This document shows, piece by piece, positions 53,258-64,000 of a DNA stretch of 64,000 nt (the first letter of the stretch is position 1; the number at the start of each line of letters is the position of its first letter). This DNA comes from Lachnospiraceae bacterium. Its GTDB lineage: Bacteria > Bacillota > Clostridia > Lachnospirales > Lachnospiraceae. The DNA lies in assembly GCA_022794265.1 (NCBI GenBank), contig JAAWEK010000008.1, forward strand, positions 1-64,000, read 5' to 3'. The position numbers and the translations under genes are program-made. The notes beneath the pieces were generated by a model. The model did not search any database and was not told where the DNA came from. It saw only the letters and a program-made list of their open reading frames with translations.

Positions 53258-53977
53258 ATGTATGTTAATCCAATATACATGCTATGGAACATGATAGAAT
53301 TAGAAAATGTCAGCAAATCATATTCCACAGGGGCTCCCGCTATCAAGGGTATCAGTCTGAAGATTGAAAACGGCGAGTTTGTATTTATAGTCGGCAACAG
53401 TGGTTCCGGCAAATCAACTTTAATTAAACTCTTAATGAAGGAACTGGAGCCTACCAGTGGAAAGATATATGTAAACGGCAGATTTTTAAATAACATGAGA
53501 AGACGAAAGATTGCCGATCACAGAAGGGATATAGGTGTCGTTTTTCAGGATTTCCGTTTGCTTCGTGACAGAAATGTCTATGAAAATATTGCATTTGCCC
53601 AGCGTGTGGTAGAGACACCCATCCGGGTAATACGGAGGCGGGTGCCGGCCATGCTTGCACTGGTTGGACTGTCGGAAAAGTACCGCTCATATCCGAAAGA
53701 ATTATCCGGTGGAGAGCAGCAGAGGGTTGCACTGGCCAGGGCATTGGTAAATAATCCTTCGATTTTACTGGCGGATGAACCTACTGGTAATCTGGACCCA
53801 AAGAATTCCTGGGAGATTATGAAGCTTCTGGAGGAGATAAATAAACGCGGTACCACGGTTGTGGTAGTCACTCATAACAGGGAAATTGTAGATGCAATGA
53901 ATAAAAGAGTTATAACCATGCATAAGGGCGTTGTCCTGAGTGATGAGAAAAAAGGTGGATATTTGTATGAAGATTAG
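53258..53977 (+). CDS. ftsE: Cell-division ABC ATPase FtsE
   Basis: A 239-residue ATPase with Walker A GNSGSGKST, Q-loop VFQDFRLL, signature LSGGEQQRVALARA, Walker B LLADEPTGNLD and H-loop THNRE. With FtsX it forms a complex that does not transport but activates peptidoglycan hydrolases outside the cell. The start at 53258 follows AAGGAAAGG; an ATG at 53291 (MIELENV) fits the usual family N-terminus but has a weak ribosome site. It overlaps ftsX by 11 bases. Confidence 0.94.
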   Translation: MYVNPIYMLWNMIELENVSKSYSTGAPAIKGISLKIENGEFVFIVGNSGSGKSTLIKLLMKELEPTSGKIYVNGRFLNNMRRRKIADHRRDIGVVFQDFRLLRDRNVYENIAFAQRVVETPIRVIRRRVPAMLALVGLSEKYRSYPKELSGGEQQRVALARALVNNPSILLADEPTGNLDPKNSWEIMKLLEEINKRGTTVVVVTHNREIVDAMNKRVITMHKGVVLSDEKKGGYLYED

Positions 53978-54875
53978 CACGATAGGATACAGTTCCGGTC
54001 AGGGAATTAAGAATATAAAAAGAAATAAGCTGTTTTCTTTGGCATCGGTGGGAACCATAGCGGCATGTATTTTTCTGATGGGACTTTTTTATTCCATTAT
54101 AATAAATGTAAGACATATGATTACAGCAGCCGAAGAATCCGTATGTATCACCGTTTTTTTTGACGAAGGTATTGCCGAAGATAAAATCAGGGAAATCGGA
54201 AATAAGATTAGCAAGCGGATAGAGGTATCACGGCTGGAATTTACTTCAGCAGAGGAGGCGTGGGAGAATTACAAAGTAGATTATTTCGGAGAGAATATTG
54301 AACTGGCGGAAGGTTTTAAAGATGATAACCCGCTGGCAAATTGCGCCTACTATGAAGTATATCTCAACGATTTGTCCATGCAGTCGGCATTAAAGACGAA
54401 TATTGAAGCAATGGAAGGGGTCAGGAGCGTCCGGGCTTCAGATATTACGGCCAATACGCTGTCGGATTTTGCAAAGATAGTGGGATATATTTCTCTGGCT
54501 ATCATTATAATTCTGCTGGCGGTGGGAATTTTCCTGATCAGTAATACTGTTATGATTGGAATTACCGTCCGGAAAGAGGAAATCCGGATTATGAAATTAA
54601 TCGGGGCTACTGATTTCTTTGTACGGTTTCCATTTATTGTGGAAGGTATCATAATAGGGGTTGTTGGGGCGATTATACCAATTGCGGTGCTGATGGTGAT
54701 TTATAATAAGGTCATGTCGTATCTGGTCACACAATTTACATCTTTTACCAGCCGGATATCATTTGTAAGTTCCAGCGATATATTTGCTTTTATGATTCCA
54801 ATGGCACTGATTATTGGGTCAGGCATTGGATTTATCGGCAGTATGATAACGATTCGAAAACATTTGAAAGTGTAG
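53967..54875 (+). CDS. ftsX: Cell-division membrane protein FtsX
   Basis: A 302-residue protein with four membrane helices: one after GIKNIKRNKLFSLASVGTI (about 22-45), then an extracellular domain (about 50-170), then three helices. The stretch IRIMKLIGATDFFVRFPFIVEG between helices 2 and 3 is typical of FtsX. It transmits FtsE ATP hydrolysis to extracellular hydrolases, most likely the M23 protein encoded next. The ATG at 53967 lies inside the ftsE end. Confidence 0.94.
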   Translation: MKISTIGYSSGQGIKNIKRNKLFSLASVGTIAACIFLMGLFYSIIINVRHMITAAEESVCITVFFDEGIAEDKIREIGNKISKRIEVSRLEFTSAEEAWENYKVDYFGENIELAEGFKDDNPLANCAYYEVYLNDLSMQSALKTNIEAMEGVRSVRASDITANTLSDFAKIVGYISLAIIIILLAVGIFLISNTVMIGITVRKEEIRIMKLIGATDFFVRFPFIVEGIIIGVVGAIIPIAVLMVIYNKVMSYLVTQFTSFTSRISFVSSSDIFAFMIPMALIIGSGIGFIGSMITIRKHLKV

Positions 54876-54910
54876 CAGTAAACAAAATAATAAAATGGAG
54901 GATGATTTCT

Positions 54911-56122
54911 TTGAAAAACAAAAAGTATTTTGCGGTATGTTTTTTGATTGCAGCAATAGTGGGAATACTGGCGGCTCAGCCTCTCTGGGCTACCAGTATA
55001 GAGGATGAAAAGAAAAAGCAGAAAGAAATGGAAGAAGATTTAAAGGATTATCAGAGCATGCTGGATAATCTGGAGTCTCTGCGTTCGGATACAAAAGCAT
55101 ATATTCAGGCTTTGGACGAACAGCTTACGGCAGTAACCAATCATCTGAACGAACTGAACGGACAGATGACGGCCAAGCAGGCAGCGATTGATGAAATCAA
55201 TCAGAATCTGTCACAGCAGGAAGCGGATATCAGCCAGCAGTATGAGGCAATGAAAAAAAGAATACAGTTTATGTTTGAGAATGGAAATACATATTATCTT
55301 GACATGTTACTGGGTTCTGACAGTATGGCAGATTTTCTGAACCGGGCGGAATATATGAAGGAAATAACGGATTATGACAGAAATATGCTGAATAAGATGA
55401 AAGAGACAAAGATACAGATTGAAAATACTAAAACCCTGCTTGAGGCAGAAAAACAGAATCTTGCAGAGATGACGGCCCAGGCGGAAAGTGAAAAGAATTC
55501 CGTTGAAGCACTGGTGGCAGACAAGCGGCAGCAGCTGCTTAACACAGAGAATCAGATTGATGCCGCTCAGATGGATATTGAAAACCAGCAGGAGGAAATT
55601 GAGGCTCAGAAACAGCTGGTAGCAGAACTGGAGGAAATCGAGCGGAAACGAAAAGAAGAAGAAGAACGGAGACGCCGGGAAGCAGAATTGAAACAGCAGC
55701 AGGCACAGATACCTAATTATGACGGTGGCACTTTTATGTGGCCTCTGCCTGGAAATTACCGGATAACTTCACAATATGGCTATCGTACGGACCCGATTAC
55801 AGGAGCAGCATCATCTTATCACAACGGTGTGGATATAGGCGCACCGACAGGAACAGAAATTCACGCAGTATACGACGGGGAAGTAGCATGGGCATATTAC
55901 AGTACCACAGCTGGCAACTGGATAGGCATAGATCACGGCGATGGCTTATATACTGTATATATGCATGCTTCTGCATTGCTGGTTTCTGAAGGTGACAAAG
56001 TTTCCAAGGGAGATGTAATTGCCCTTGTAGGATCTACCGGCAGGTCAACCGCACCGCATCTGCATTTAAGTGTGAGAAAGAATGGTTCCTATGTAGATCC
56101 GCATTTGTATTTGAATTATTAG
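54911..56122 (+). CDS. Secreted coiled-coil M23 peptidase (EnvC/PcsB-like hydrolase)
   Basis: A 403-residue exported protein with a signal peptide (about 1-27, ending QPLWA), two long coiled-coil segments (about 28-110 and 150-265, rich in E, K, Q and A) and a C-terminal M23 domain (about 285-400). Zinc ligands are in YHNGVDIGAP and HLHLSV. The coiled coil plus M23 layout and the position after ftsEX point to the hydrolase that FtsEX activates for cell separation. The likely start is TTG at 54911, eight bases after GGAGG; the ATG at 54902 is too close to that site. Confidence 0.92.
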   Translation: MKNKKYFAVCFLIAAIVGILAAQPLWATSIEDEKKKQKEMEEDLKDYQSMLDNLESLRSDTKAYIQALDEQLTAVTNHLNELNGQMTAKQAAIDEINQNLSQQEADISQQYEAMKKRIQFMFENGNTYYLDMLLGSDSMADFLNRAEYMKEITDYDRNMLNKMKETKIQIENTKTLLEAEKQNLAEMTAQAESEKNSVEALVADKRQQLLNTENQIDAAQMDIENQQEEIEAQKQLVAELEEIERKRKEEEERRRREAELKQQQAQIPNYDGGTFMWPLPGNYRITSQYGYRTDPITGAASSYHNGVDIGAPTGTEIHAVYDGEVAWAYYSTTAGNWIGIDHGDGLYTVYMHASALLVSEGDKVSKGDVIALVGSTGRSTAPHLHLSVRKNGSYVDPHLYLNY

Positions 56123-56171
56123 TGTTTTTCTGGCACTGAGCGCCGATTATAGTTGAAAGAAGGACGGATGA

Positions 56172-57410
56172 ATGGAGGAGAAAAAAGAGTATTACCGTGG
56201 ATTACGGACAGGAATTATCAGTACGCTGGTAATCACATTATCAGTATTTCTGTTATTTATTATTTCAAATAAAATTAAAAATCTAGGCTTTGATTTTGGA
56301 AGTACCAGCAGAAATGAATCGCAGATAGATAGTATGTACGGAAAAGGTTCTGCGGATAAATTGAAATTGATTCAGCAATACATCGATGCATATTATATTG
56401 ATGACCCGGATAGAGAAGATGTGCTGGCCGGTATGATGAAAGGCATGATAACTTCATTAGAAGATCCTTATTCGGTTTACTATACGTCGGAAGAATATGC
56501 AGATCTTATGACTTCCACCAGCGGTTCTTATTATGGCATTGGTGTTAGTGTAACTCAAAATCTGGAGACTGGTATTATAACCATAGTAAAAGTATTTAAA
56601 ACATCGCCTGCCAGAGAAGCGGGAATGAAAGACGGTGATATCTTATATGCTGTTGAAGGCAAAGAAGTGACCGGACAGGATTTATCCTCAGTAGTTGCAG
56701 AAATTAAAGGAAGAAAGAATACAAAAGTCAATGTTACAGTTTTGAGAAACGGAGAGAAGATTGATTTATCTATTGAGCGCCGGGAAGTTGAGATGGACAC
56801 GGTCGAATATAAAATGTTAGATAACGGCGTTGGTTATTTATATATCAGTGAGTTTGACGGAGTGACTACGAAACAGGTTGAAAATGCCATTAAAGATTTG
56901 CTTTCACAGGGAATGACTTCTATTGTAGTGGATTTAAGGGATAATCCTGGTGGAAGACTGGATGTGGTAGAGGATATTATGGATATGTTTCTGCCGAAAG
57001 ATAAACTTCTGATGTATATGGAATACAAGAGCGGCGAAAGAAAGGATTCTTACTCCAGAACCAACGGACTGATACCGGATATGCCGATGACCGTGCTGAT
57101 TAATCAAAACAGTGCCAGTGCATCGGAATTGTTTACTGGCGCCATTCAGAGTTATGAGCGGGGTAAGGTTGTAGGTGTTACTTCTTTTGGAAAAGGAATC
57201 GTTCAAAGTATCTTCCAACTGGATGATGGAACAGCACTGAAGCTGACGACTGCCAAGTATTATTTGCCAAATGGCGAGAATATTCATAAAGAAGGAATTA
57301 AACCGGATGTGGTTGTAGAACTGCCGGAAGGTATAAAAAGCTGTTGGGAGCTTTCGGAGGAAGAAGATAATCAGTTGCAGAAAGCCATTTCTCTGCTGGT
57401 TGAATCGTGA
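56172..57410 (+). CDS. S41 carboxyl-terminal processing protease
   Basis: A 412-residue membrane-anchored protease with one N-terminal helix (about 13-35), a PDZ domain (about 100-190, YYGIGVSVTQ and GMKDGDILYAV) and the S41 core with VVDLRDNPGGRLD, catalytic Ser in NSASASELFTG (about 317) and catalytic Lys in SFGKGIVQS (about 341). CtpA/CtpB proteins cut extracytoplasmic proteins at their C-termini. Its place after ftsEX and the M23 protein suggests control of wall hydrolysis. AAGGACGG lies upstream of the ATG. Confidence 0.93.
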   Translation: MEEKKEYYRGLRTGIISTLVITLSVFLLFIISNKIKNLGFDFGSTSRNESQIDSMYGKGSADKLKLIQQYIDAYYIDDPDREDVLAGMMKGMITSLEDPYSVYYTSEEYADLMTSTSGSYYGIGVSVTQNLETGIITIVKVFKTSPAREAGMKDGDILYAVEGKEVTGQDLSSVVAEIKGRKNTKVNVTVLRNGEKIDLSIERREVEMDTVEYKMLDNGVGYLYISEFDGVTTKQVENAIKDLLSQGMTSIVVDLRDNPGGRLDVVEDIMDMFLPKDKLLMYMEYKSGERKDSYSRTNGLIPDMPMTVLINQNSASASELFTGAIQSYERGKVVGVTSFGKGIVQSIFQLDDGTALKLTTAKYYLPNGENIHKEGIKPDVVVELPEGIKSCWELSEEEDNQLQKAISLLVES

Positions 57411-57436
57411 TGTCGATATTTGTCGAAGGCTTTTTG

Positions 57437-57466
57437 TTGACAAATTATTCCATGTTCCTTTATAAT
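57437..57466 (+). promoter_or_regulatory. Sigma-A promoter of c-di-GMP riboswitch operon
   Basis: TTGACA (57437-57442) and TATAAT (57461-57466) with an 18-base spacer. The expected start is near 57473, at the 5' edge of the aptamer. Confidence 0.75.
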
Positions 57467-57467
57467 A

Positions 57468-57570
57468 CAGCTTGTATTGGCAAACTAATAGAAATATTAG
57501 GACGCAAAGCTGGGAGTCTAAGGTAGGAAATGTTGGGTTTAAAATTTGATATACTATGATAGTTCGGCTG
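57468..57570 (+). ncRNA. Cyclic di-GMP-I (GEMM-I) type riboswitch aptamer
   Basis: The conserved core is readable: GGCAAAC at 57479, a six-pair stem CTAATA / TATTAG closed by a GAAA tetraloop (57485-57500), then GGACGCAAAGC, the tetraloop-receptor halves TCTAAG (57517) and CTATGA (57554), and TAG before the P1 strand. A possible P1 is CAGCT (57468) with GGCTG (57566), although its 5' side lies just before the expected transcript start; TGTATT (57473) with AATACA (57576) is an alternative. The base that is normally the conserved C after TAG reads T (57563). Class assignment is confident; ligand preference is not. Confidence 0.85.
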
Positions 57571-57597
57571 CAGGAAATACATTCTTGCAGTCTTTTT
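57566..57597 (+). terminator. Expression-platform terminator of the riboswitch
   Basis: An 11-pair stem (GGCTGCAGGAA with TTCTTGCAGTC, two G-T pairs), loop of five, then five T. Its 5' arm shares bases with either candidate P1 strand, so ligand-stabilised P1 should prevent the terminator, which predicts an ON switch. Confidence 0.78.
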
Positions 57598-57734
57598 ATG
57601 TTTAAGGAGCGGTAATATATACCTTAGAAATAGTATATGGTTATTCAATATGGATAAAATCAACAAATACTGGTTTGGGTGCACACGAATGGCGTAGGAG
57701 TTGTTTTTAATATAATTTTTTAAGGAGGAATCTA

Positions 57735-58238
57735 ATGGTTTTGAAAAGAATTAATACAATCAAAAGAATAGTAGCAATAGTTTTGATATTTTGTATGTTG
57801 ACAGGAAGTGGTGTCTTTACTGAAGCAGCAACAGGATATAAGAGTAAAAATATGAAAGGAAATCGTTCCTATACCCAATTTAATTGTTCGCTGTACAACA
57901 AGTCAAATTTCTGGGATGTTGAGGTTCATGCGGATGGTACTTCACAGACTTTATGGTGTGGTTCGAAGCCTTTTTATGCTGACAGTATTACGCATAATAA
58001 TATCTTGAGTTGTTCTGGTATTGGCTCTATGAGCATTGGTGGAAATAGAAGTGGTGCAAATTTTTCAACTTCTGTAAGTGGTCATACTGCAACATGGACA
58101 TATACAGCTAGAAATGTTTATCATATTACTGTAAATTATAATTATTATACCAAAGGTTTATTGGGTGCATGGAATTTAAAAATGAGAACAGAAGCGACAA
58201 TTCAATTTGGTGCGTATTTTTATACATTTGGAACCTGA
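57735..58238 (+). CDS. Small secreted protein of unknown family under c-di-GMP riboswitch
   Basis: A 167-residue protein with a clear Sec signal: basic start MVLKRINTIKR, hydrophobic core, and likely cleavage near FTEAATG (about 32-34). The mature 130 residues are rich in Ser, Asn, Thr, Tyr and Gly with alternating pattern suggesting beta strands (TATWTYTARNVYHITVNYNY), three cysteines (FNCS, LWCG, LSCS) and a C-terminus YFYTFGT. I do not recognise the family. AAGGAGG lies eight bases before the ATG. It is the first gene after the riboswitch and is followed by its own terminator-like hairpin, suggesting higher expression than the next two genes. A bacteriocin, adhesin or matrix subunit are all possible. 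Confidence 0.78.
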   Translation: MVLKRINTIKRIVAIVLIFCMLTGSGVFTEAATGYKSKNMKGNRSYTQFNCSLYNKSNFWDVEVHADGTSQTLWCGSKPFYADSITHNNILSCSGIGSMSIGGNRSGANFSTSVSGHTATWTYTARNVYHITVNYNYYTKGLLGAWNLKMRTEATIQFGAYFYTFGT

Positions 58239-58279
58239 TAATTTTATTCATATTATTTCATTATAATATGGATATTAAG

Positions 58280-58336
58280 CAGAAGTCTCTGATTTTAATT
58301 TTAATATGGTAAAGATTTATCAGAGGCTTCTGTTTT
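58280..58336 (+). terminator. Intercistronic terminator-like hairpin
   Basis: Arms CAGAAGTCTCTGAT (58280-58293) and ATCAGAGGCTTCTG (58319-58332) pair over 14 bases with one G-T, loop 25, then four T. It lies between the small secreted protein and the next gene of the same orientation, and probably lets only part of the transcripts through. Confidence 0.7.
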
Positions 58337-58362
58337 GGTATAGAGAGGATGGGATTTGCTAA

Positions 58363-60162
58363 ATGAAAAAAATGAAAGCAAAGTTAGCAGCTGCAATTTT
58401 ATTTATAGTAATTATGGGAATGATTCTTTGTTTATATTATTATAATAACAGAAATTTTGTTATGAAAGAAAAATATAGTTTTAGTGAAGGAAACATGATA
58501 GAAGGTTCAGTTACAAAAGAAGAATGTGAAAATATAAATAGCTTATTGGCGGAAAATGTGTATGAAAATGACAAGTATTATGGTTTTAATGATAATAAAG
58601 AAAATGTTGATTTTTATACTGCTAATGCATTTGCAAAAATTGCTGTAACACTTAAAAATGATGATATGGTTAATTTACTTTGTAGCAAACTTCTATTTCT
58701 AAATAATATAAATACAGATTCCATGAATATATTAAATCTAATTTACTATGTTAACATTTGTAAATCCCTTGGTATTTATTATAACCCTGATATAATATTT
58801 AATAGTTTGAAAAAATATTATGACAGTAATGACAAGCTTTTCTATTTAAACAGTGAAAAGGATAGCATTAACATTAAGATTACATTAACTGCATTATGTT
58901 GTAATACAATAAAAGAAAATGAGTTATTTGATATTTTTGATATAAAAGAAGGGGTGGTTGCTGCATACAATGATTATAAGTTTGATACTTCCGGAGTTTC
59001 TTCCCTATATAATTCCGGGGGGGATATTTTGCATTGCCTGAATGTAATTGGTGAGATAGATATGATAGATTTACAAAAGCATAAATCATGGTTTGAAAAT
59101 TGGAAAAATCAATACGAGTCGATGAATATCGAAAGCGTGGAAAGTCTATTACAATATTCAGAGTTTTATAAGATTGCAAAAATATTTGATAAAAATTATT
59201 CGAATGAAAAAATAAAAAGGTTTTATGACAGCATGAATGGTGAGTATCTTGTTGAAGATATGGATTATTTTATGTTGGTTAATTCTATAGAAAATATTGA
59301 TGAATATAATAATTTTGATTTCAATTCTATACTATTGGATAAAATAAAAGGTTGTATCCAGAGGGGAGAATTGTTTGAATCTAAGATTGACGTACAATCT
59401 ACCCTTTATGGCATACTTTTAGCCGACAAATCCGGTTTTCAATATAACAAAGACAAGGTACAGAATTATATCAATCAAAATTATCAACTCATTGAAGAAA
59501 GCAGAGATCCTTTAGAAATAACAAATTATTTGTACTATACTATTATATTGGAACAAATTATAAATAATTTTAATGTAAAATATGATAGTAGCTTTATTCA
59601 AAAAAAAGTGGACTATGTTTTAAAGAATATAAAATATGATTATGAAAATGGAGAAGAAAGCATACAGGAGACAAGAAAAATTCTTGAAATTATTATGGAT
59701 TTGCAAATACATAATGTTGATATACAGATTACGGAAAAACAAAGAAAAAAGATAAAAAAGGGTTTAAAATCCTGTTGGAAACAAGAAGAGCTTACCAACA
59801 GTTTTTTTATTACGGATATGTATATTATTAGTGATATTCTAAAATTGGATATTGTAAATACAGATGATTTTAATCAGATTCACAATCGACTCTTATCCGA
59901 CGGTGGAAATAAAATGTATAATGATAAGACTATGGCAGCAGATATTTTTACTACTTATAAATTTGAAATCTGTCTGGAACGAATGAATAATTATGATTAT
60001 TTGGAAGAAAAAAAGAAATTTGCCGAGTCTTTGAAAATAAAAGAAGGAATTTATTGTCTGTATAATGATTCTGAAAATTTGGTAATAGAATTAGCATCTG
60101 TACTTTATGGAAATATTATTTGCAAACAGGAAATTGGAGGGGATAAGTTTGATATCAATTAA
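58363..60162 (+). CDS. Membrane-anchored helical repeat protein of unknown family
   Basis: A 599-residue protein. Basic N-terminus MKKMKAK, one membrane helix (about 8-26), then about 570 residues rich in Asn, Ile, Lys, Asp and Tyr with regular helix pairs, which could form an alpha/alpha repeat or toroid; this is a guess from the pattern. I see no catalytic motif and do not recognise the family. The gene is strikingly AT-rich in all codon positions compared with the rest of the window. It overlaps the ABC transporter gene by 14 bases and is probably its partner, and may act as immunity, maturation or assembly factor for the small secreted protein. Confidence 0.78.
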   Translation: MKKMKAKLAAAILFIVIMGMILCLYYYNNRNFVMKEKYSFSEGNMIEGSVTKEECENINSLLAENVYENDKYYGFNDNKENVDFYTANAFAKIAVTLKNDDMVNLLCSKLLFLNNINTDSMNILNLIYYVNICKSLGIYYNPDIIFNSLKKYYDSNDKLFYLNSEKDSINIKITLTALCCNTIKENELFDIFDIKEGVVAAYNDYKFDTSGVSSLYNSGGDILHCLNVIGEIDMIDLQKHKSWFENWKNQYESMNIESVESLLQYSEFYKIAKIFDKNYSNEKIKRFYDSMNGEYLVEDMDYFMLVNSIENIDEYNNFDFNSILLDKIKGCIQRGELFESKIDVQSTLYGILLADKSGFQYNKDKVQNYINQNYQLIEESRDPLEITNYLYYTIILEQIINNFNVKYDSSFIQKKVDYVLKNIKYDYENGEESIQETRKILEIIMDLQIHNVDIQITEKQRKKIKKGLKSCWKQEELTNSFFITDMYIISDILKLDIVNTDDFNQIHNRLLSDGGNKMYNDKTMAADIFTTYKFEICLERMNNYDYLEEKKKFAESLKIKEGIYCLYNDSENLVIELASVLYGNIICKQEIGGDKFDIN

Positions 60163-62398
60163 TAATATCAGCAAAAGTTTTGGAAATAAAACAATTATAA
60201 ATAATTTAAGTCTGACAATATATGAAGGAGAAATTACTTTTATAGTTGGCAGTTCCGGGGCGGGAAAGTCAACACTTTTAAATCTGATTGGTGGATTGGA
60301 TACTGTCAGTTCAGGCGAAATATCTTATAATGGAAAGAATATTTCTGATAATTTGAATGAATATCGGGCAGAACATGTGGGATTTGTTTTTCAGGAATAT
60401 AATCTGATTACCGGAATGTCTGTAAAAGATAATATAAAGTTGGGGCTTTATTATTGTGATAAAGAAGAAAGCATTGCAGAAATTGATGAGCAATTAAAAA
60501 ATTTGTGTGTTAAGGATGTCAATCAAACCGTTGAAACCTTATCCGGGGGGGAGAAACAGAGAGCTGCAATTGTTCGTACGGTATGTAAAAATTCGAATAT
60601 TATTTTGGCAGATGAACCCTCAGGAAATTTGGATTCTGAAAATGCTGAAAATGTGTTTGAATTATTATCGGGATTAAAAAATAACAGACATATTATTATT
60701 GTAACACATGATATGGAAAAAGCAAATAAATATGGAGATAGAATTATTACCATAAAAGACGGAAGAATAGAGGAGGATTATAGGAGCAGTGAGAAAACGG
60801 ATTTCGAAAAAGAAGTAAAATCCAGAGGGAAAAAAGGCAGGCAGAACTGGAAATCTGTTGTTATGTTAGGGTGGAACAGCATAAAGTTACGAAAATCCAG
60901 AATACTGTCCATTGCCCTGGTAATTGCTTTGGCAATCAGTTCCATTGCAATGGCCATTCATTTTAGTCAATCCGGGAACAGAGTAAGTCAGAATGTAAAT
61001 GTAAATTATCTGGAATCGGATTTGATTCAGTTGTTCTATCCTCAGACTATGAATCTGGGATATAAAGAAACACCTTTTGAAGAAAAGGAAGTCGCGCATA
61101 TACAGAATACTTATGATTTGAAACGGATTGTTCCGATATATACAGAGGGCAATGGAAGTTGGTTTTTTAATCATGAAAGCGTTATAAAAGATGCAGTAAT
61201 TAAACAGATAATTGTCGATGATTTTTTTGAAGAAAGAGTTATGTCAAATGAGATTGAAGGAGATTTTATTGCTGAAGAAGATGAAATTATATTAGCAGAG
61301 GATATTGCAGAAGCATTATTTGATGGAAATTGTATTGGAAATAAGATTTCATTGAATGACGGAGCAGGAAATAGTATTCAATTTAAGATAGTCGGAATTA
61401 ATCATACCGTAAATGCAGCCGATGAGATTTATTCTTTTGTAAGCTCTAATCAGATTAAAAAGTTATTAGAAAAGCAAATAGATGCTAAAATTGAATCCAA
61501 TATCAGTCTGGAAAAATATTATACAGAAATGGTTGATATGAAAACCGGTTTTATCTATGGCGCATTGAAAGAAACACAGGGAACGGAGAAAATTTTATAT
61601 GGAAAAGAGCCGGAACAGGCTGAGGAACTTGTAGTCAGTTCAGAACTGATTCAATATGTTTTCGAAGGTTTAGGCATTGAAAACAATTATTCGAAAGATG
61701 ATATTTTGAATGGTGCTGTTTCGAAAGATATTATCACGGAAATAGAATCTCAAAAACTGACAATTAATTGTAATGGATTGTTTGAAGTCCATATTTGTGG
61801 AGTGTATCAATCGGATGAAATAGAATTGCGCTGTTCTAAACATCTGCTTAATGATTTGAGAAGTCTGGAACCGACGGTATTGGAAGTATATGCTGCAAAT
61901 ACCGGAAGTGTGACAGATATCATAAAAGACATTGAAAAAAATGAGGAATATACGGCTGCATCCCAATTAGAAAGTTTAAAGAATAATGTAGGTATGCAGA
62001 CCCGGTTTTTTGAAATTTCCATAATACTGCTTGGTACAATCATGGTAATTATATCGATTTCAATGCTGGCATCTTTTTCGAAAATATCAGTGATGGAAAG
62101 GAAAAAGGAAATAGGAATTATAAAAAGTCTTGGGGCAAGTGACAGGAATGTTTTTCTTACGTTATGGTTTGATATTGCAGTTATCTCGGTAGCGGCAATG
62201 GCACTGGCGCTGTGGATTACGAAAATATTTATGATTATTTTGCCGGATATTATGGGTGATATTGCGTTTATTGAGTATACATATCCAATTAAGTATTTAC
62301 TTCTGATTGGAGTTCTGTTTATGGCAGTTATAACCGTATATACAATGGTGGGAATGAAGAAGCTGGTGAAAAAAATGCCCGCATTACTTTTGAAATAG
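60149..62398 (+). CDS. Fused ATPase-permease ABC transporter (MacB/FtsX-like)
   Basis: A 749-residue protein. ATPase domain at about 1-225: Walker A GSSGAGKST, Q-loop VFQEYNLI, signature LSGGEKQR, Walker B ILADEPSGNLD, H-loop VTHD. A membrane helix (about 268-290) is followed by an extracellular domain of about 340 residues and three C-terminal helices with the FtsX-type stretch MERKKEIGIIKSLGASDRNV. This is the MacB layout, used for pushing peptides or lipoproteins out of the membrane. The start is TTG at 60149 after GGAGGGG, inside the end of the upstream gene. The C-terminus is complete. Confidence 0.9.
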   Translation: MISINNISKSFGNKTIINNLSLTIYEGEITFIVGSSGAGKSTLLNLIGGLDTVSSGEISYNGKNISDNLNEYRAEHVGFVFQEYNLITGMSVKDNIKLGLYYCDKEESIAEIDEQLKNLCVKDVNQTVETLSGGEKQRAAIVRTVCKNSNIILADEPSGNLDSENAENVFELLSGLKNNRHIIIVTHDMEKANKYGDRIITIKDGRIEEDYRSSEKTDFEKEVKSRGKKGRQNWKSVVMLGWNSIKLRKSRILSIALVIALAISSIAMAIHFSQSGNRVSQNVNVNYLESDLIQLFYPQTMNLGYKETPFEEKEVAHIQNTYDLKRIVPIYTEGNGSWFFNHESVIKDAVIKQIIVDDFFEERVMSNEIEGDFIAEEDEIILAEDIAEALFDGNCIGNKISLNDGAGNSIQFKIVGINHTVNAADEIYSFVSSNQIKKLLEKQIDAKIESNISLEKYYTEMVDMKTGFIYGALKETQGTEKILYGKEPEQAEELVVSSELIQYVFEGLGIENNYSKDDILNGAVSKDIITEIESQKLTINCNGLFEVHICGVYQSDEIELRCSKHLLNDLRSLEPTVLEVYAANTGSVTDIIKDIEKNEEYTAASQLESLKNNVGMQTRFFEISIILLGTIMVIISISMLASFSKISVMERKKEIGIIKSLGASDRNVFLTLWFDIAVISVAAMALALWITKIFMIILPDIMGDIAFIEYTYPIKYLLLIGVLFMAVITVYTMVGMKKLVKKMPALLLK

Positions 62399-62469
62399 AC
62401 AAGAATATACCGTCAGGTGATGCTCTGGTTAAATTATAAATGTTATACATATATTTTGAAAAAAAGATA

Positions 62470-62498
62470 TTGACAATTATCTACACTTCATTTATAAT
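62470..62498 (+). promoter_or_regulatory. Promoter of tRNA cluster
   Basis: TTGACA (62470-62475) and TATAAT (62493-62498), spacer 17, 41 bases before the first tRNA. Confidence 0.8.
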
Positions 62499-62538
62499 AA
62501 CACTTGCGTTGTTAAGAACGTCTAAATCCATCAGACAA

Positions 62539-62613
62539 CGGGGTGTGGCTCAGCTTGGCTAGAGCGCCTGATTTGGGATCAGGAGGTCGCAGGTTCGAAT
62601 CCTGTCACCCCGA
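62539..62613 (+). tRNA. tRNA-Pro, anticodon TGG
   Basis: Cloverleaf with acceptor CGGGGTG / CACCCCG, anticodon loop TTTGGGA on stem CCTGA / TCAGG, and T-arm AGGTTCGAATCCT. CCA is not encoded. Confidence 0.93.
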
Positions 62614-62619
62614 CTTTAA

Positions 62620-62690
62620 GCGGGTGTAGTTCAATGGTAGAACACTAGCCTTCCAAGCTAGATACGTGGGTTCGATTCCCATCACCCGCT
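62620..62690 (+). tRNA. tRNA-Gly, anticodon TCC
   Basis: Acceptor GCGGGTG / CACCCGC, anticodon loop CTTCCAA on stem CTAGC / GCTAG, T-arm GGGTTCGATTCCC. Six bases follow tRNA-Pro, so they are one transcript. Confidence 0.93.
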
Positions 62691-62747
62691 TTTACATTGA
62701 AAAAATAATATATTTTATCAATTGTAAGTTACTCATTTAGTATTTGC

Positions 62748-62821
<74 letters not shown>

Positions 62822-62850
62822 TTTTTCCGGAACCGGTATCCGGAAGCTAT

Positions 62851-62925
62851 GGTGGGTATAGCGCAGTTGGTTAGCGCGCCAGATTGTGGCTCTGGAGGCC
62901 AAGGGTTCGAATCCCTTTATCCACC
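62851..62925 (+). tRNA. tRNA-His, anticodon GTG
   Basis: Acceptor GTGGGTA / TATCCAC with an extra 5' G facing C73, the histidine identity pair. Anticodon loop TTGTGGC on stem CCAGA / TCTGG. Confidence 0.92.
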
Positions 62926-62929
62926 CTTT

Positions 62930-62972
62930 AGTTAGGAAGTACTATGAGGAATAGTAGTTACTAACTTTTTTT
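62930..62972 (+). terminator. Terminator between tRNA-His and tRNA-Gln
   Basis: Long imperfect stem AGTTAGGAAGTACTAT / ATAGTAGTTACTAACT followed by seven T; it splits the tRNA array into two units. Confidence 0.75.
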
Positions 62973-62997
62973 ATTTCAACAGGAAGATTCCATATAA

Positions 62998-63070
62998 TGG
63001 GCTATCGCCAAGCGGTAAGGCACAGGACTTTGACTCCTGCATTACGTTGGTTCGAATCCAACTAGCCCAG
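62998..63070 (+). tRNA. tRNA-Gln, anticodon TTG
   Basis: Acceptor TGGGCTA / TAGCCCA, anticodon loop CTTTGAC on stem CAGGA / TCCTG, T-arm GGTTCGAATCC. Its body is very similar to the tRNA-Gln(CTG) at 48133. The sequence ATAAT just upstream may be part of its own promoter. Confidence 0.93.
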
Positions 63071-63076
63071 TTTGAA

Positions 63077-63119
63077 AAAACTATCCTCAGAGACCTATGG
63101 CTTGAGGATAGTTTTTTTG
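63077..63119 (+). terminator. Terminator after tRNA-Gln(TTG)
   Basis: Stem AAACTATCCTCA / TGAGGATAGTTT with a loop of about 15 bases, followed by T-run. Confidence 0.85.
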
Positions 63120-63182
63120 TTCTGACAGGTATAAGTTGACGGAAATATCAGAAACTATTTTATATACAACGGAGGTGAAACC

Positions 63183-63737
63183 ATGTTAAAAGTGGTGGAT
63201 TCAGACAGCTTTATGAAAGAAATCAAAGAATTATATGATACGGCATTTCCGAGAGAAGAACGATATCTGGATTTTGAGCCCACCGTAAAGCAGATGGAGG
63301 CTGCAGATTTCGGTAAGAGACGGGGCGAGTTGCTGGCGTTTGGTGAGGATACCGGGGAAACAGCCGGTTTTGTAGGATTTGTAATGGTATTGTTTTGCGG
63401 GGATATAGTGCATTTATATTATTTTGCCATACAAGAGAAGCTGCGGGGACGTAAGTATGGGGAACAGGCTTTGAATTTGATCAGAGAGCGGTACAGGGAC
63501 AGAAATATCTGGCTGAGCGTGGAACTGCCGGATGAAAATGCGGATAACCAACAGCAGCGGCTGCGGCGGAAGCAGTTTTATTACAGAAACGGATTTCGGG
63601 ATACCGATGTGTCGGGAGAAAAAAATGGTTGTATGCTACAGATGATGTCAACGGACGGAACAGTTGATTCGGATATATTGATTCAGCTGGATAAACTGAT
63701 AAATAAAATGATTACGGAAGGCCGCAAACTGCAGTGA
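63183..63737 (+). CDS. GNAT family N-acetyltransferase
   Basis: A 184-residue acetyltransferase. The N-terminal ELYDTAFPREER opening and the beta4 strand with acetyl-CoA loop (VHLYYFAIQEKLRGRKYGEQ) are typical; the C-terminal half has RRKQFYYRNGFRDT. The substrate is unknown. GGAGGTG precedes the ATG. It follows the tRNA array and is probably a single gene or co-transcribed with the Dabb-domain gene after a 90-base gap. Confidence 0.87.
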   Translation: MLKVVDSDSFMKEIKELYDTAFPREERYLDFEPTVKQMEAADFGKRRGELLAFGEDTGETAGFVGFVMVLFCGDIVHLYYFAIQEKLRGRKYGEQALNLIRERYRDRNIWLSVELPDENADNQQQRLRRKQFYYRNGFRDTDVSGEKNGCMLQMMSTDGTVDSDILIQLDKLINKMITEGRKLQ

Positions 63738-63826
63738 TACAATTGGCAGAATAAAAAATTCCGGACAGAGACACTGGGTTCTGTAGTCACCAGGATTGAT
63801 GAAATAAAAGAAAGGATAAATGAAAC

Positions 63827-64000
63827 ATGGTAAAGCATATAATTTTATGGAAGATAGCTGATGGAAAATCAGAAGAAGAGAAGCAGAAGATTAAAGAAGG
63901 TGTAAAGACCGGTTTGGAAGGATTGAAAGGTAAAATACCAGGTCTGCTGGATATCCGGGTACAGATTGATTCGCTGGCTTCATCCAACGCGGATATTATG
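63827..64000 (+). CDS. Dabb-domain (stress-responsive A/B barrel) protein, 3' end outside window
   Basis: The first 58 codons of a small protein starting MVKHIILWKIADG, continuing with a charged helix and IPGLLDIRVQ. This matches the N-terminal half of dimeric alpha/beta-barrel (Dabb) proteins of about 100 residues, a family of mostly unknown function with some enzyme members. AAAGGA lies ten bases upstream of the ATG. The reading frame is still open at the right window edge. Confidence 0.82.
   Translation, partial: MVKHIILWKIADGKSEEEKQKIKEGVKTGLEGLKGKIPGLLDIRVQIDSLASSNADIM

Follow-up and report, generated by a model that had tools for sequence, protein, structure and literature searches.

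The window considered here is a stretch of 64,000 nucleotides (positions 1 to 64,000 of contig JAAWEK010000008.1, GenBank assembly GCA_022794265.1) from the 2.88 Mb draft genome of a Lachnospiraceae bacterium (G000; G, L and C numbers designate our genomes, loci and contigs). Towards its end lies a cassette of three genes, termed here S, H and T, preceded by a riboswitch of the cyclic di-GMP (c-di-GMP) I class. Its features are collected in Table 1, together with those of an RNA element, R1, met at other loci. A preliminary description of the DNA had placed there a GEMM-I-type aptamer with a terminator, followed by genes for a small secreted protein, a membrane-anchored helical protein and a one-chain ATP-binding cassette (ABC) transporter. 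This anatomy stands: the aptamer scores well above the gathering threshold, the terminator follows it, and the three open reading frames (ORFs; 167, 599 and 763 amino acids, the last counted from an upstream ATG) are in place.

Table 1. Features of the S-H-T cassette (window positions) and R1 elements of other loci (positions within each locus)
Feature	Position	Strand	Basis or remark
Promoter, TTGACA-18 nt-TATAAT	57437..57466	+	12/12 consensus matches, sigma-70-type; consensus match only
c-di-GMP-I (GEMM-I) riboswitch aptamer, RF01051	57469..57575	+	64.9 bits, gathering threshold 35
Intrinsic terminator, 11 bp	57566..57592	+	5' arm shares 57566-57569 with the aptamer closing helix
Shine-Dalgarno AAGGAGG of S	57722..57728	+	Sequence
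S, 167 aa, Sec-type secreted orphan; proposed antibacterial effector	57735..58238	+	ORF and family scans
17-bp hairpin between S and H	58277..58335	+	-25 kcal/mol, z -5.4
H, 599 aa, one N-terminal transmembrane segment, rest all-alpha; proposed S-specific immunity protein or receptor	58363..60162	+	ORF, hydropathy, structure prediction
T, single-chain ABC transporter, ATPase + MacB_PCD + FtsX	60149..62398	+	TTG start preferred
R1 element	L230 1501-1638	-	Model R1
R1 element	L231 1501-1642	-	Model R1
R1 element	L232 1501-1637	-	Model R1
R1 element	L233 1501-1640	-	Model R1
R1 element	L236 1501-1639	-	Model R1
R1 element	L237 1501-1639	-	Model R1
R1 element	L234 1501-1635	-	Model R1
R1 element	L239 1501-1640	+	Model R1

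The scan of 5.8 kb returned 42 promoter-like sites (32.3 in shuffled sequences), two of which, including the promoter of the cassette, reach the 12/12 score. Compared with other RF01051 riboswitches, the aptamer is ordinary in core and score. The terminator is the sole terminator-like site of the 5.8 kb scanned (shuffles average 2.0); the evidence for it is its position, as the count is not above chance. In folding predictions on this one sequence, aptamer and terminator are mutually exclusive, having four bases in common. When the aptamer pairs are forced, only 7 of the 11 terminator pairs persist and the U-run no longer adjoins them; the unforced leader fold contains the full terminator. Because the forced aptamer weakens the terminator and the free fold keeps it whole, the leader is predicted to be an ON switch under c-di-GMP.

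S bears a hydrophobic, Sec-type N-terminus, as had been described. It has no Pfam row at E-values up to 10, no NCBIfam row and no PADLOC model at E<=0.01; PHROGs yields two unnamed rows only (E 0.035 and 0.12), and the structure model has a predicted local distance difference test (pLDDT) score of 40. Neither a sorting motif of the LPxTG type nor repeats were seen by eye in its 167 residues. Among 397 genomes of the family, rows at 0.003-0.1 were obtained in 26 other genomes, several of them having internal stops or lying inside much longer frames, and are taken as chance. The hairpin downstream of S is possibly an attenuator or an mRNA-end structure. H is anchored by a transmembrane (TM) segment at about residues 6-24 and is helical throughout the remainder, in agreement with the preliminary description; the helical part is, by inference, outside the cell. 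H has no Pfam family at E<=1 and no PADLOC model at E<=0.01, and its single NCBIfam row (E 0.082) is a chance one. The view that neither protein belongs to a recognised family thus holds, and S matches no known, unrelated family. H has one significant relative among the 397 genomes (G061, 24% identity), and a second (35% identity) came from the T-profile search of further contigs, in the Lachnospiraceae metagenome-assembled genome (MAG) SIG321. In the H of SIG321 (L067 5116-6183), about 245 middle residues are gone as compared to the window protein, the two ends and T being retained.

The frame of T is open from ATG 60107 (763 residues), and a TTG at 60149 gives 749 residues. The latter is most likely the start, because GGAGGGG lies ahead of it and because it fits the homologues better. 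The overlap of H and T noted previously is therefore present, at a size of 14 bases instead of 56. The assignment of T as a MacB/FtsX-like protein is borne out by its domain scores: PF00005 reaches 116.9 bits and, for the permease part alone, PF12704 reaches 30.1 (cut-off 27) and PF02687 51.6 (cut-off 25.5). A single TM stands behind the ATPase in the hydropathy profile, the other TMs being C-terminal. The ATPase part resembles the solved structures of MacB (5nik, 3.6e-42; the closest) and BceA, and its best NCBIfam family is TIGR03608 (lactococcin-972 ABC), with 191.8 bits for a cut-off of 254.85. T shares with the MacB or type VII ABC family the succession of ATPase, TM, MacB_PCD and C-terminal FtsX in one chain. 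Unlike MacB, it has no adjoining MacA-like adaptor gene (none among the ORFs scanned, 53940-63737); its partners are S and H.

A profile of the T permease part was run over the 397 genomes, with at most three candidates scored per genome, so that the counts are lower bounds; 4 loci and 18 further stretches were then inspected. Clear long matches were obtained in G061 and G103 and a fragment in G212; the lower-ranking remainder was made up of FtsX proteins, with G288 and G355 at its head. The search of further genome contigs gave three loci in all. Among named records, genes related to T occur in SIG321, an uncultured Eubacterium sp. MAG and Eubacterium oxidoreducens DSM 3217. H and T are adjacent, without S, in G061 and SIG321. 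Five other genomes encode a small secreted protein, an anchored protein and a single-chain MacB-like ABC protein: G288 (201-aa secreted, 345-aa lipobox protein, T), G355 (180-aa secreted, 331-aa anchored, T), G017 (273-aa secreted, 188-aa anchored, 833-aa ABC), G212 (L169; 267, 198 and 839 aa) and G125 (L195; 272, 199 and 847 aa). The T proteins of G288 and G355 display 25-27% identity with that of the window over 710-787 aligned columns. The cassettes of G017, G212 and G125 belong to a second class (class B), within which identity is 26-44% for S, 18-27% for H and 28-33% for T, and those of G212 and G125 stand behind c-di-GMP-I aptamers. A search for the same gene order behind GEMM-I motifs, as had been suggested, therefore finds this order behind this riboswitch class in two further cases, the S and H there being unrelated to those of the window. 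The earlier proposal that the three genes act together is supported by these adjacencies. In G212, a window-type T permease survives as a 319-aa remnant (L046 5498-6457) on the contig that also holds the intact class B cassette. In E. oxidoreducens (G103; L045 1073-6566 / L069), a window-type T is immediately followed by a 1061-aa secreted protein, and H is absent.

The order secreted protein, membrane partner and ABC protein is also that of the lactococcin-972-type loci (lcn972, scbABC, mdc). According to the available parts of two reports, these encode a small unmodified protein secreted by Sec, a membrane partner thought to confer immunity and an ABC protein, and partner-only loci occur (PMC11796350, PMC12345188): of 571 pneumococci, 157 have scbBC but lack scbA (PMC11796350). 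The mediterrocin locus (mdc) of Mediterraneibacter gnavus, a member of this family, combines a Sec signal, a DUF1430 membrane partner and an ABC protein (PMC12345188, same limit). The window cassette differs in several respects. S has no PF09683 match (Pfam, E up to 10) and is longer, its precursor having 167 residues against 114 in mediterrocin. H has one TM and no DUF1430, whereas the partner there has seven TMs, and T has no DUF1430 row either. Finally, the permease of the window is fused to the ATPase, and control is by a c-di-GMP riboswitch. Membership in the lactococcin-972 family was rejected, as PF09683 and DUF1430 are absent and the TIGR03608 cut-off is missed. By analogy, the cassette is proposed to work like a lactococcin-972 locus though outside that family, and the H-T loci without S resemble immunity-only loci such as scbBC. 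A class II double-glycine bacteriocin was also rejected for S, given its Sec-type N-terminus, the lack of a double-glycine leader and the absence of a Peptidase_C39 row for S, H and T; operons of that type lie behind the same aptamer class in this genome, G182 and G131. Among the Clostridioides difficile c-di-GMP-I targets named in the available part of PMC11477304, which include the operon of early flagellar genes, genes for an adhesion protein and a metalloprotease, and several entries given only as small hypothetical proteins, there is no S-H-T-like cassette.

Besides that of the window, four RF01051 aptamers were found in this genome. Two are on C18 (L009 5501-9489), the first before a 202-aa ORF and the next before a 69-aa double-glycine-type peptide (PF10439, E 0.0059, under the cut-off), which is accompanied by a 67-aa peptide (no Pfam row). 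Behind the peptides, a C39-peptidase ABC exporter (PF03412) is encoded by a split gene (438 + 225 aa), the 438-aa half scoring 343 bits with TIGR01193 (cut-off 523.85). On C28 (L010 4069-12001, L241 3-2708), the aptamer precedes the gene of a secreted protein with RHS repeats (PF05593 1.6e-71, DUF6531), which was read as two pieces and spans roughly 3150 aa by its coordinates; ORFs of 266 and 175 aa, possible immunity genes, follow. The aptamer of C9 stands before the gene of a TadZ-like pilus protein. The pilus gene excepted, the aptamers found in this genome all precede bacteriocin, RHS or S-H-T type loci.

RF01051 is present in 135 of the 397 genomes. From roughly 150 best matches listed, 120 further aptamer loci were surveyed over up to 5.5 kb downstream (12 under 4 kb), leaving out tandem neighbours, matches at contig ends and some of the lowest-scoring matches. 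An ABC-ATPase-like ORF lies downstream of the aptamer in six loci. Small secreted protein plus ABC cassettes account for three of these: L169, L195 and L208 (G125), the last having a third layout with a 133-aa secreted protein, two permeases and an ATPase behind the aptamer. Double-glycine peptides were recognised by eye in two of the 120: in L188 (G131), which is among the six, they are followed by an ABC ATPase and a frame beginning like a C39 exporter, and in L137 (G182, of the same genus as the window), a C39-like exporter starts at the contig end. L154 and L205 hold other ABC systems.

In five of the 120 loci (L137, L169, L188, L195, L208), an element of roughly 105 nt, R1, lies just 5' of the small secreted or double-glycine gene and is formed by two conserved hairpins. 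The covariance model was built from those five loci, which thus match by construction; across the 120, it gave nothing else above 19 bits, bar antisense self-matches of 24-34 bits, and none of the other 115 showed the element. Applied to 10 chosen genomes, it identified eight confident elements in five of them, each immediately ahead of a gene for a small secreted protein or a double-glycine peptide; six lie downstream of c-di-GMP-I aptamers. One is at the C18 bacteriocin locus of this genome (86 bits), and two are in G131, with no aptamer in the flanks examined. A G131 element (L242) precedes a 141-aa secreted gene, two permeases and an ATPase, a layout identical to that of L208, and a weak match in G017 (29.5 bits) is away from the cassette. 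Changes on both sides are seen in 7 of the 23 pairs, and 94.6% of cells pair, a value reached by none of 500 shuffles, in an alignment fitted to the model. R1 is covered by no Rfam match at E<=1 and may be a further riboswitch or a translational control element in tandem with the c-di-GMP switch. At L243 (2679-4361), an R1 element is followed by genes for a 154-aa secreted protein and two similar 180-aa anchored proteins, an immunity-like tandem duplicate.

From this anatomy and its recurrence we infer, with moderate confidence, that the cassette is a c-di-GMP-switched bacteriocin-type system, in which S would be a Sec-secreted antibacterial and H and T its cognate protection. Without c-di-GMP, the leader would form the terminator and transcription would stop. 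With c-di-GMP, the closed aptamer would capture the four shared bases, weakening the terminator, and S-H-T would be transcribed. S would leave via Sec and act outside on competing bacteria; since it has a Sec-type signal, T is unneeded for membrane crossing. H, with its helical part outside, may bind or shield against its cognate S. MacB-type ABC transporters with an extracellular domain are suited to pushing or pulling a ligand at the outer face. T, as a transporter of this mechanotransmission type, could clear S or an S-bound target from the producer membrane, or aid the release of S. The H-T gene overlap may couple the translation of H and T, and the hairpin between S and H would permit an excess of S. 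An effector (S), a cognate immunity protein (H) and a common clearing pump (T) make the simplest division of roles, because the anchored H varies as fast as S. The divergence of S and H with retention of T across cassettes fits toxin-immunity pairs better than a surface role. The preliminary description had hesitated between bacteriocin-immunity and surface-structure systems under second-messenger control. The former is favoured by association, because aptamers of the same genome precede a double-glycine operon and an RHS protein, and because H-T without S resembles scbBC without scbA; the latter stays as a rival, treated below.

The cassette lies between the gene of an S41 protease, on the upstream side of which genes for FtsX and for a PcsB-like M23 peptidase also occur, and a downstream cluster of five tRNA genes (62539-63070). 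The G+C content of the three genes (57735-62398) is 30.4%, against 40.2% for the whole window; this low value next to tRNA genes suggests an accessory insertion.

Several observations weigh against a bacteriocin-type system switched by c-di-GMP. The antibacterial effect of S is a proposal. S is an orphan, with no homologue besides itself at E<=1e-3 in the 397 genomes, and orphan genes of low G+C could be surface or island genes. The leader reaches -35.7 kcal/mol when folded freely but -23.5 with the aptamer forced, a penalty of 12.2 kcal/mol, and the ON state therefore depends on the ligand or on co-transcriptional timing. T falls short of the TIGR03608 cut-off, and the class B T of G212 scores 180.7 with DarD and 179.2 with TIGR03608. 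The S and H of class B are not homologous to those of the window by convincing scores. Those of G288 and G355 are not convincing either (phmmer against an 11-protein database: 3.4e-4 and 0.39 for S, 0.13 and 0.004 for H). Four of the five T-discovered loci beyond the window (G061, SIG321, G288, G355, G017) show no aptamer in front; none was found in front at L047, L048 and L067, nor in the 226 bases covered before S of G017, whose two RF01051 matches are on another contig. The aptamer directly before H-T in G061 is degenerate (26.2 bits, gathering threshold 59; E 3e-4 in 322 bases). Finally, the window cassette lacks the R1 element of the class B and double-glycine loci.

The cassette might instead serve surface or biofilm functions, S being a matrix, adhesive or pilus-associated protein and H and T a chaperone of assembly and a machine for extrusion or release, turned on by c-di-GMP with other sessile-lifestyle genes. 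The flagellar operon and adhesion protein among the C. difficile targets (PMC11477304, in its available part) and the aptamer before TadZ in this genome are in keeping with such a role. So is the hydrophobic N-terminal segment of 66 of the 107 first ORFs after surveyed aptamers, which makes secreted or membrane products common whatever their role. However, S lacks sorting motif and repeats, the joint divergence of S and H beside a conserved T better suits toxin-immunity pairs, and G061 and SIG321 retain H-T without S; this explanation is therefore held to be unlikely. A defence or detoxification module, in which H and T would guard against foreign antimicrobial proteins or peptides in the manner of BceAB or MacB, with S as a decoy or sensor ligand and no weapon, would account for the MacB- and BceA-like ATPase and for the H-T pairs without S. 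It sits poorly with the position of S directly behind the switch and ahead of H-T, a small secreted gene being similarly placed in five other genomes, and with the absence of regulator or two-component genes among the family-matched ORFs of 54000-64000, and appears quite improbable. That there is no functional unit, with S as an independent gene under the riboswitch and H-T as resident transporter genes that lie beside it by chance, would agree with the strong hairpin between S and H, the two H-T loci without S and the lack of S homologues, but is very improbable in view of the degenerate aptamer directly before H-T in G061 and of the unrelated S genes at the same place before an anchored gene and an ABC gene in five other genomes.

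The bacteriocin-type interpretation may extend beyond the window. It is conceivable, though we hold this only tentatively, that c-di-GMP-I riboswitches command an antibacterial regulon in this Lachnospiraceae lineage, comprising new families of Sec-secreted antibacterials with matching anchored immunity proteins and MacB-like ABC transporters, double-glycine bacteriocins, an RHS toxin and Tad pili. In such a regulon, R1 would mark many of the weapon genes, maybe as the additional control element considered above. Among the literature matches listed (titles and abstract starts, with few subscription journals covered), none deals with a bacteriocin-type cassette controlled by a c-di-GMP riboswitch; the closest, as far as its available part tells, connects bacteriocin synthesis in Pectobacterium with a diguanylate cyclase (PMC9144310). 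If the proposed reading is true, an RNA switch would link c-di-GMP, a messenger of the sessile lifestyle, directly to the antibacterial weaponry of Lachnospiraceae, and the cassettes would provide several new families of secreted proteins together with their likely immunity partners.

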